NCBI GenBank assembly: GCA_019056595.1
Contig: CP036163.1
Coordinates: 1,736,001-1,800,000 of the forward strand
Source: Pectobacterium atrosepticum
GTDB taxonomy: Bacteria > Pseudomonadota > Gammaproteobacteria > Enterobacterales > Enterobacteriaceae
Direction: 5' to 3'
Length of the DNA: 64,000 nucleotides
Below are positions 4,302 through 59,453 of this stretch, one piece after another. Numbering within the stretch: the first letter of the stretch is position 1; the number at the start of each line of letters is the position of its first letter. The translations under genes and the position numbers were made by a program. The notes below the pieces were generated by a model. That model did no database searches and had not been told where the DNA came from. It saw only the letters and a list, made by a program, of their open reading frames with translations.

Positions 4302-4421
4302 AAACCTGGCAGTTCCCTACTCTCACATGTGGAGACCCCACACTACCATCGGCGCTACGGCGTTTCACTTCTGAGTTCGGCATGGGGTCAGGTGGGACCA
4401 CCGCGCTATCGCCGCCAGGTA
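4302..4421 (-). rRNA. rrfF: 5S rRNA, distal copy (rrfF-like)
   Basis: The 120-nt minus-strand sequence matches enterobacterial 5S along its length, including the central GACCCCATGCCGAACTC block and pairing 5' and 3' ends (CCTGGCGGC with GCCAGG). It differs from the proximal 5S copy at the termini and in the arm before the 3' end (CCACATGTG rather than CCCCATGTG). A second 5S gene after tRNA-Thr is the arrangement of E. coli rrnD. Confidence 0.95.
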
Positions 4422-4455
4422 AATTCTTTTTAAGCCGAACATTAACCCAAATCAC

Positions 4456-4531
4456 TGGTGCTGATACCCAGAGTCGAACTGGGGACCTCACCCTTACCAA
4501 GGGTGCGCTCTACCAACTGAGCCATATCAGC
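4456..4531 (-). tRNA. thrV: tRNA-Thr (anticodon GGU)
   Basis: This is a 76-nt tRNA with encoded CCA. The acceptor stem GCTGATA pairs with TATCAGC. The D-loop holds CAGTTGGTAGAG, the anticodon loop reads CTTGGTAA (GGU), and the T-loop carries GTTCGACTC. It sits between two 5S genes, as thrV does in E. coli rrnD, and must be processed from the rRNA transcript. Confidence 0.96.
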
Positions 4532-4547
4532 GCACCTGTATAAATTG

Positions 4548-4667
4548 ATGCCTGGCAGTTCCCTACTCTCACATGGGGAGACCCCACACTACCATCGGCG
4601 CTACGGCGTTTCACTTCTGAGTTCGGCATGGGGTCAGGTGGGACCACCGCGCTATCGCCGCCAGGCA
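4548..4667 (-). rRNA. rrfD: 5S rRNA, proximal copy (rrfD-like)
   Basis: The 120-nt minus-strand sequence starts TGCCTGGCGGC and ends TGCCAGGCAT, the canonical mature 5S ends. It lies 126 bp after the 23S 3' end, the expected place for the first 5S of an rrn operon. Confidence 0.96.
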
Positions 4668-4793
4668 AATTCTGTTTCATTCCAACCGTTACTTATCATG
4701 ACTTTTTGTCATCTCCGTAACCATCAGAACCAATCTTCGAACAAGCTGAATATCGTTTTATATGAGTCACCCACAAAACACCTTCGGTGTTGT

Positions 4794-5050
4794 AAGGTTA
4801 AGCCTCTCGGGTCATTAGTACTGGTTAGCTCAACGTATCGCTACGCTTACACACCCAGCCTATCTACGTCGTAGTCTTCAACGGCCCTTCAGGGCATCTA
4901 GTGCCCAGGGAAGACTCATCTCGAGGCAAGTTTCCCGCTTAGATGCTTTCAGCGGTTATCTCTTCCGCACTTAGCTACCGGGCAATGCAATTGGCATCAC
5001 AACCCGAACACCAGTGGTGCGTTCACTCCGGTCCTCTCGTACTAGGAGCA
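4794..5050 (-). rRNA. 23S rRNA, 3'-terminal fragment
   Basis: About 257 nt on the minus strand correspond to the last part of 23S. They begin at TGCTCCTAGTACGAGAGGA, which is the sarcin-ricin loop near E. coli position 2650, and end at GGCTTAACCTT. The sequence is continuous with the mature 3' end but is joined upstream to a 23S segment that should lie almost 1 kb away. It is therefore not part of a complete 23S gene as presented. Confidence 0.9.
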
Positions 5051-5326
5051 GACCACCTGTGTCGGTTTGGGGTACGATTTGATGTTACCTGGAGCTTAGA
5101 GGCTTTTCCTGGAAGCGTAGCATTGGTTACTTCATCACCGTAGTGACTCGTCATCACGCCTCAGTGTTAATAATGACCCGGATTTACCTAAGTCATCCAC
5201 CTTCACGCTTAAACCGGGACAACCGTCGCCCGGATAACCTAGCTTTCTCCGTCCCCCCTTCGCAGTAACACCGAGTACAGGAATATTAACCTGTTTCCCA
5301 TCGACTACGCTTTTCAGCCTCGCCTT
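5051..5326 (-). rRNA. 23S rRNA, internal fragment
   Basis: About 276 nt match the middle of 23S, roughly E. coli 1350-1700. The fragment runs from AAGGCGAGGCTGAAAAGCG to ACCGACACAGGTGGTC. Both ends are abnormal joins: the 5' side abuts 16S after AACGTCTT, and the 3' side jumps to the sarcin-ricin region. Each join shows only 1-2 bp of shared sequence. Confidence 0.88.
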
Positions 5327-5514
5327 AAGACGTTATGCGGTATTAGCTACCGTTTCCAGTAGTTATCCCCCTCCATCAGGCAGTTTCCCAGACATTACTC
5401 ACCCGTCCGCCGCTCGTCACCCAAAGAGCAAGCTCTTCTGTGCTACCGCTCGACTTGCATGTGTTAGGCCTGCCGCCAGCGTTCAATCTGAGCCATGATC
5501 AAACTCTTCAATTT
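5327..5514 (-). rRNA. 16S rRNA, 5'-terminal fragment
   Basis: The first ~188 nt of 16S are present, from AAATTGAAGAGTTTGATC to ACCGCATAACGTCTT. Then the sequence switches to 23S. The V1 helix (GTAGCACAGAAGAGCTTGC) is of the Pectobacterium type. The rest of 16S, the spacer with its tRNAs and the first half of 23S are absent. Confidence 0.92.
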
Positions 5515-26311: not shown

Positions 26312-26565
26312 GGCGTAAAAAATTATGCTGAGGAGGTAGCTGGCTTAGGATGAGCCGCAGGACGCGGCGAAAGCTTGCGCCACGTCGGGAACGTGTCGCA
26401 AGCGGTCCGTTAAGCCAGATATCGACGAAGGCATCGCGTTAGCGGCATAATTTACGCCGAAAGCCTAGGGGTCACGGGGCGAGTGGCGTTTGAGCCGCCC
26501 CGTGTCGGGCGTGTGCGACGAAGTAGCATGGAATGGCAATATTGTGGCGCACGAAACCGTCTCCT
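26312..26565 (-). repeat. Structured ~250-bp intergenic repeat, copy C
   Basis: This minus-strand copy lies in the 504-bp gap between cysG and cysH. Landmarks read on the minus strand: TTTCGTGCGC, hairpin 1 CACGGGGCG/CGCCCCGTG (26473-26481 and 26496-26504), long-range arm AATTATGC, hairpin 2 with arms GCTTGCG/CGCAAGC (26373-26379 and 26397-26403) and loop TTCCCGA, CTCATCCTA, and closing arm GCATAATT (26321-26328). The same order recurs in copies A (44715-44959) and B (59203-59453). The remaining bases of the gap, 26113-26311, would carry the cysG promoter, which I could not place. Confidence 0.85.
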
Positions 26566-44665: not shown

Positions 44666-44714
44666 TCCCCCCCTCACCCCTCCTCTTAATCACATTTGTT
44701 ATGCAGGCTAAGAG

Positions 44715-44959
44715 AGAGTTTCGTGCGCCATACTGCCGCCATTCATATGTAACATATACACGCGCCCGACGCAGGGCGCTCAGTCGCCGCCGCCCTGCGA
44801 ACCCAGGCTTCCAGCTAAATTATGCCGCTACGCGGTTCCATCGGTGCCCATGCCCGCTTTTCGAGCCGCCAGTGACGCGTTCCCGACGCGGCACTGGCTT
44901 TCGCGACGTCCTGTCGCTCACTCGGCGGTCAAGCGCACCGCTGCATAATTTTCACGCCG
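44715..44959 (+). repeat. Structured ~250-bp intergenic repeat, copy A
   Basis: This copy lies in the 352-bp convergent gap between the SDR gene and rhiN. Landmarks in order: TTTCGTGCGC, hairpin 1 CGCAGGGCG/CGCCCTGCG (44770-44778, 44791-44799), arm AATTATGC (44818-44825), small hairpin CCGC-TAC-GCGG, hairpin 2 GCCAGTG/CACTGGC with loop TTCCCGA (44868-44898), then arm GCATAATT (44943-44950). Compared with copies B and C, paired positions change together. Confidence 0.85.
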
Positions 44960-45017
44960 GATAACGGCCAAACCATAAAAATTCGCAGCATTTGCATATA
45001 AGAGTAGCGATGACCTC

Positions 45018-59202: not shown

Positions 59203-59453
59203 GGAGAGGTTTCGTGCGCGATACATTCCAACGATCATTTCCGCAACTGCGTCGCGCCCGACACGGGGCGTCCAATCGACGCCGCCCCGTGACCCCAGTC
59301 TTTTGCGCGGGAATTACGCCGCTTCGCGGTGCCTTCGGAAATACAGTCCTCTGGCGGACCGTCGCTGACGCGTTCCCTACGCGGCAGCGACTTTCGTGGC
59401 ATCCATGCCACTCATCCTAGATAACTGTGTTTCCTCAGCGTAATTTTTACGCT
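59203..59453 (+). repeat. Structured ~250-bp intergenic repeat, copy B
   Basis: This copy occupies nearly all the 324-bp gap between mazG and relA. It has TTTCGTGCGC, hairpin 1 CACGGGGCG/CGCCCCGTG (59262-59270, 59283-59291), arm AATTACGC (59312-59319), small hairpin CCGC-TTC-GCGG, hairpin 2 GTCGCTG/CAGCGAC (59361-59367, 59385-59391) with loop TTCCCTA, CTCATCCTA and arm GCGTAATT (59439-59446). The long-range arms pair despite differing from copies A and C. Confidence 0.85.

Follow-up and report, generated by a model that had tools for sequence, protein, structure and literature searches.

The window, a stretch of 64,000 nucleotides from contig CP036163.1 of Pectobacterium atrosepticum (5.04 Mb; the home genome), contains three copies of an element of about 245 nt. 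Copies were scored with R1, a covariance model built from 21 home-genome copies with no E. coli sequence among them. The core of copy A lies at 44719..44958 on the plus strand (242.1 bits, E 3.9e-85). Copy B lies at 59210..59453 on the same strand (210.9 bits, E 5.1e-74), flanked by genes that we take from their reading frames to be mazG-like and relA-like. Copy C lies at 26312..26556 on the minus strand (223.3 bits, E 2e-78) between genes that are presumably cysH-like and cysG-like, likewise named from the reading frames. The G+C contents of copies A, B and C are 0.62, 0.58 and 0.59, respectively, a property that depends on the genome. No fourth copy is found within the window by R1 at E values up to 1. 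The initial annotation had described a three-copy element with paired changes in its hairpins; this observation is confirmed, as the copies, the order of their landmarks and the quoted paired changes are all present in the sequence. An open frame of 87 codons (window 44701-44964, +) spans copy A; it probably arose fortuitously, as it is the fold that the copies preserve.

Searching the genome and other Pectobacterium genomes with a covariance model, as the initial annotation had suggested, reveals a genome-wide family. R1 matches 28 copies in the home genome (E <= 0.01), the last two being weak and degenerate, and 17-44 copies per genome in 25/25 Pectobacterium genomes searched (E <= 1e-4). 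Blast of copy A against its own genome gives 32 matches at E <= 1, of which the last two are weak. Since blast and R1 both recover copies genome-wide, chance is excluded. Blast of copy A further yields no phage match, no E. coli match and a single weak match in the plasmid collection (E 6e-3), and Rfam searches of the whole window and of copy A place nothing on the element. The earlier view that the element is not ERIC agrees with the 22-letter ERIC core, which has 0 matches in the window with three or fewer mismatches.

Fold and covariation

We define the top strand as the strand beginning TTTCGTGCGC and the bottom strand as its opposite. Read on the top strand, the element comprises a 5' domain, in which a stem TCG.GCGC/GCGC.CGA surrounds a variable hairpin and is followed by hairpin H1, and a 3' domain, in which a small hairpin CGC..GCG, a second long-range stem and the hairpins H2 and H3 all lie within a first long-range stem. 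Two of these parts extend the initial annotation, namely the variable hairpin inside TTTCGTGCGC...GCGCCCGA and the second long-range stem, which shows covarying arms by eye and is only partly included in the counted structure.

To assess covariation, the 21 home copies without a loop insert were aligned with MAFFT, i.e. blind to structure. Paired cells amount to 97.3% in this alignment, and both sides change in 25 of the 54 pairs. The covariation score of 0.320 compares with 0.144 +/- 0.008 in 500 shuffles, none of which reaches it, and drops to 0.037-0.072 when the pairing partners are slid by 1-3 columns. In the same 21 copies the pair types are no more numerous than in the shuffles, 274/500 of which reach the same number. 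For 70 matches outside the genus the score is 0.500, compared with 0.160 for shuffled and at most 0.087 for slid partners, in an alignment that was made to R1 and so leans towards the model. Scores above both the shuffled and the slid controls bear out the earlier proposal that the fold rather than the sequence is conserved, and we conclude that the fold is under strong constraint.

Folding of the top strand, compared with shuffles, gives z -7.13 for one home copy and z -5.28 for copy B, the bottom strand of which folds less strongly (z -3.36). The E. coli repeat TRIP1c (see below), folded with some flank, has z -5.29, and two distant copies have z about -2.6 each. On the top strand H1 and H2 together contain 2408 Watson-Crick cells compared with 19 G-U and 55 A-C cells. 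Given as G-U:A-C on the top strand and summed over both alignments, the exchanges lean to the bottom strand in H1 (8:25) and H2 (11:30) and to the top strand in the first long-range stem (37:13 overall and 18:6 in its three outer pairs), the second-stem piece (94:41) and H3 (47:6, with many of the wobbles in the innermost pair); the outer 5' stem stands at 8:6. The G-U and A-C exchanges in the stems thus point to no consistent strand, and an early reading that wobble pairs favour the top strand failed on the larger set.

Relation to TRIP1 and TwoAYGGAY and spread across genomes

The TRIP1 repeat of Escherichia coli reportedly goes back to Rudd in 1999, and we know of no function for TRIP1 relatives. 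R1 finds TRIP1c (E 5.7e-29), TRIP1a (E 2e-28) and TRIP1b (E 7.9e-12) of E. coli K-12 at the coordinates given for them in a passage of Li et al. 2024 (PMC10888264). TRIP1a and TRIP1c align over model positions 1-246, and TRIP1b does so with its internal deletion. Apart from the full-length model match, TRIP1 and the element have in common that they are intergenic, often just behind a gene, and have a stable predicted RNA fold. Excerpts of the same paper (PMC10888264) call the TRIP1 fold a 'double-Y', give a G+C content of 62-65% for TRIP1 in E. coli and report up to five copies at mostly fixed E. coli loci, in contrast to the dozens in Pectobacterium. The element also differs from TRIP1 by an extra module of 75 nt in the H2 loop, present in 5/28 home copies. 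This small-hairpin module (L058:1668-1742) occurs at 13 further home-genome places outside the copies (E below 1e-4) and is a second dispersed repeat nested in the TRIP1-type element. TRIP1 is found in either orientation at two E. coli loci, aqpZ and yohI, with a 5' border that is sharp in different flanks. With L064, a copy from another genus, as query, at least one place is matched in 5375 of 5426 complete E. coli genomes (median three), and phages give no match; an other-genus query also matched a K-12 derivative near the published TRIP1a site.

The second relative is TwoAYGGAY (RF01731), an RNA motif from 2010 that has, to our knowledge, no known function. RF01731 scores above its gathering cut-off of 43 bits in the distant members L072 (twice), L070 and L133, always opposite to the top strand. 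Because all these matches lie on the opposite strand, TwoAYGGAY corresponds to the bottom strand of the 3' domain. Below the cut-off, RF01731 matches TRIP1a (30.6 bits) and TRIP1c (30.9 bits). The home genome has no match above the cut-off; two copies fall below it (33.5 and 29 bits), one more sub-cut-off match (19.3 bits) lies outside any copy, and the window copies are below the cut-off or unmatched. TwoAYGGAY shares with the reverse complement of the element a stem enclosing two neighbouring hairpins with GGA loops, but it is defined on the opposite strand and without the 5' domain, and its AYGGAY in both loops has a counterpart in the window, by eye, only in H3 of copy B. Passages of two papers list the motif in 2010 as probably RNA and probably not cis-regulatory (PMC2864571) and already propose that it binds CsrA (PMC4333381).

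Judged from sequence, the three copies are members of a dispersed, structured TRIP1-type family, within which they belong to a branch with high copy number. The initial annotation had recognised no known family and had itself named a match to a described repeat family as refuting its proposal. Since R1 matches E. coli TRIP1, and the 3' domain is the reverse complement of TwoAYGGAY in distant members, the claim of an unrecognised family falls. None of the papers listed by our literature searches describes the Pectobacterium family, or connects TRIP1 with an RNA family, in its title or abstract. Treating TRIP1 and TwoAYGGAY as one family, extended by the 5' domain and by a genus in which copies number in the dozens, makes them one testable problem.

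The family extends across the Enterobacterales, and weaker relatives occur in other parts of the class. A scan of the order matches 29/394 genomes from 14/115 genera (E <= 1e-3; own genome included) and a scan of the class 7/369 genomes (own included), where the matches besides the own genome are mostly weak and cover the 3' domain; both scans scored five candidates per genome, so that these counts are lower bounds. The best locus of the class scan, L132 (E 1.4e-20), shows the same 3' architecture on folding. R1 confirms carriers in Serratia, Samsonia, Enterobacter, Leclercia, Brenneria, Dickeya and Symbiopectobacterium, and the 3' part in Erwinia and Pantoea. In a control for chance matches we scored 27 loci of the 80 listed for a 20-letter core pattern (118 stretches overall). 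The model finds the element in 17/18 loci from Enterobacteriaceae and allied families, three of the 17 (Pantoea, Erwinia) with the 3' part only, and in 0/9 loci from other groups. Adjoining the element in L070, from a 2.3-Mb genome, are four sub-threshold CRISPR-repeat-like matches (RF01317; L070:1158-1364) at a spacing of 60 nt.

GGA loops and CsrA/RsmA

On the bottom strand H2 and H3 each carry a GGA loop. In copy A, H2 maps to 44868..44898 (-) and H3 to 44903..44917 (-), based on the sequence and the loop census; from the sequence, the hairpins are at 59361..59391 (-) and 59396..59411 (-) in copy B, where the H3 loop is AUGGAU, and at 26373..26403 (+) and 26354..26368 (+) in copy C. By eye, H3 of copy B is the only hairpin in the window with the full six-nt loop; in copies A and C the loop is the shorter AGGAC. 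Loops were counted in alignments A4 (70 rows) and A5 (55 rows), each with one row that lacks a loop and is out of the GGA count. A4 leaves out L078, L082-L084, L086-L090 and L094, which are short, partial or weak, as well as other loci, and the Pectobacterium copies added to A5 were drawn from the best-scoring part of the match list from the 25 genomes. GGA is present in both loops in 115/123 copies, 65/69 outside the genus and 50/54 inside, and the spacing in the copies with both loops is 21-27 nt (median 25). The H1 loop contains GGA in 4/120 copies. H3 reads CANGGAYG in 44/69 copies outside and 43/54 inside the genus, H2 in 30/69 and 0/54.

CsrA, which is called RsmA in Pectobacterium, is present in 35/35 element-bearing genomes tested, although this test could hardly fail. 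According to sections of PMC7652899, the majority of CsrA sites from SELEX have GGA in a six-nt loop closed by AC/GU, most sites have at most four contiguous pairs, and one CsrA dimer bridges sites that are 10-63 nt apart, best more than 18 nt. The spacing of the two GGA loops on the bottom strand lies within the 10-63 nt expected for a CsrA/RsmA-binding RNA. E. coli CsrA CLIP-seq peaks are described as enriched in AuGGAug in a short stem-loop in part of PMC5694010.

In our view the element is best explained, with a probability of roughly 0.45, as a dispersed 3'-end element of the TRIP1 type that binds CsrA/RsmA when transcribed from the bottom strand; that this strand is transcribed, that the protein binds and that binding has any effect is what we infer. 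If the opposite strand of TTTCGTGCGC is transcribed, H2 and H3 would each present a GGA loop, and at a distance of about 25 nt the two loops would be fit for one CsrA/RsmA dimer. The element may carry paired docking sites for CsrA in this way, and would then link its host transcript, at the 3' end, to the Csr/Rsm system or else titrate CsrA. Like the regulatory RNAs CsrB/CsrC and RsmX/Y/Z, it would act through GGA hairpin loops, but it has two loops each, exists in many dispersed copies and is a predicted RNA only. Several observations weigh against this reading, among them the weaker bottom-strand fold of copy B and stem exchanges that do not favour the bottom strand. In a hand tally of the home genome that counts convergent sites twice, the top strand follows a gene in 21/28 copies and the bottom strand in 17/28, so that the bottom strand is not preferred. 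The ideal hexaloop is absent from H2 in Pectobacterium (0/54), and the stems of the element are longer than the SELEX sites of up to four pairs. Searching the main text of PMC5694010 for yohP, aqpZ and putP gives no match. The link to TwoAYGGAY, together with binding of CsrA as proposed, makes the element testable in E. coli K-12.

Gene context, arrangement of copies and alternative explanations

The home copies lie behind genes. With gene calls that are longest-frame guesses, 0 of 28 copies lie between divergent genes, 10 between convergent and 18 between tandem genes, compared with 7/27 divergent among the window gaps of at least 100 nt under the same crude gene calling. This would suit a 3' UTR barrier, in which the strong fold of the top strand shields the upstream mRNA from 3' exonucleases or backs up termination. 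The placement of the top strand in the 21 home copies where it follows a gene, often 50-70 nt past the stop codon, and the folding energies of two home copies far below shuffles (z -7.13 and -5.28) are consistent with such a role. A barrier, however, has no need of conserved loops, 4 of 23 further loci (three loci, L125-L127, being from Pectobacterium) lie between divergent genes, and the TRIP1a repeat of K-12 is situated downstream of an apparent terminator according to a passage of PMC10888264. We regard a barrier function as unlikely to account for the element. The constraint might also act on DNA. In a selfish repeat the hairpins would matter as single-stranded or cruciform DNA, moved in a REP-like manner by an enzyme elsewhere in the cell, and pairing would be kept for the moving step or by imperfect-palindrome repair, with no need for an RNA function. 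The nearly exclusive Watson-Crick pairing of the H1 and H2 stems, the copy number of 17-44 in 25/25 genomes, the two E. coli loci with TRIP1 in either orientation and a match spanning copy C in only 5/25 genomes all argue for mobility of this kind. So does the arrangement of neighbours less than 600 nt apart, which in several genera, counted where the retrieved stretches were long enough, are tail-to-tail in 17/20 pairs, tandem in 3 and head-to-head in 0. Repair or DNA folding alone nevertheless leaves unexplained why the loop GGA/TCC and its spacing are kept over genera, and no mobilising enzyme was found; we consider a purely selfish repeat somewhat less likely than CsrA/RsmA binding. REP/BIME and REPIN repeats are similarly dispersed, intergenic and palindromic with inverted pairs, whereas the element is much longer, has a multi-branch fold and is linked here to no mobilising enzyme.

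That the element is a MITE whose ends resemble those of Tn5/IS50 and which a transposase of this type mobilises is highly improbable. Matches to the Tn5 mosaic end reach 16/19 at 37-40 nt upstream of the core and 15/19 downstream, in each case in a minority of 52 copies. The upstream arm, by eye, covaries with a partner immediately ahead of the core and so resembles a local hairpin, which is seen in front of many home copies. Inspection by eye also shows that the 9-nt flanks have no shared 9-nt duplication (L036 shares five letters) and that copies from other genera have no Tn5-like ends. With end-like matches that are partial and confined to a minority, and no 9-bp target duplication, we rejected this candidate. 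A transposase search of the 25 genomes gave no match, but its controls were unmatched as well, so that it is uninformative.

The site of copy C varies between genomes. Ten junctions among the 20 genomes without a copy C match show a terminator-like hairpin or other repeats, with no exact borders. The cysH-cysG gap of L101, L102, L105, L116 and L122 holds different repeat-like sequences and looks like a hot spot. In L120 (G413), one of the five genomes with a match spanning copy C, copy C in this gap is interrupted by an insertion of 1373 bp that is IS110-like by eye; IS110-like elements are known to target repeats.

Building on CsrA/RsmA binding by the bottom-strand transcript, which we favour, a wider scenario is conceivable, if rather speculative. 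One mobile multi-copy family, comprising TRIP1, TwoAYGGAY and the Pectobacterium repeats, would have spread ready-made double CsrA/RsmA sites behind genes across the Enterobacterales and parts of the Gammaproteobacteria, and tail-to-tail pairing would give a transcript from either side one GGA pair. If this is true, copy number would tune the level of free regulator and connect new genes to CsrA/RsmA. If CsrA binds the GGA loops, genes have been brought under a global regulator by a mobile repeat.

Elsewhere in the window, at 4304-5494 (-), two 5S genes are arranged around a tRNA-Thr gene. Beside these 5S genes is a stretch of 700 nt that scores only 280 bits against the 23S model and consists, by eye, of 23S-like pieces joined to the start of a 16S gene. 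This rRNA region is either a deleted rRNA operon or an assembly joint.
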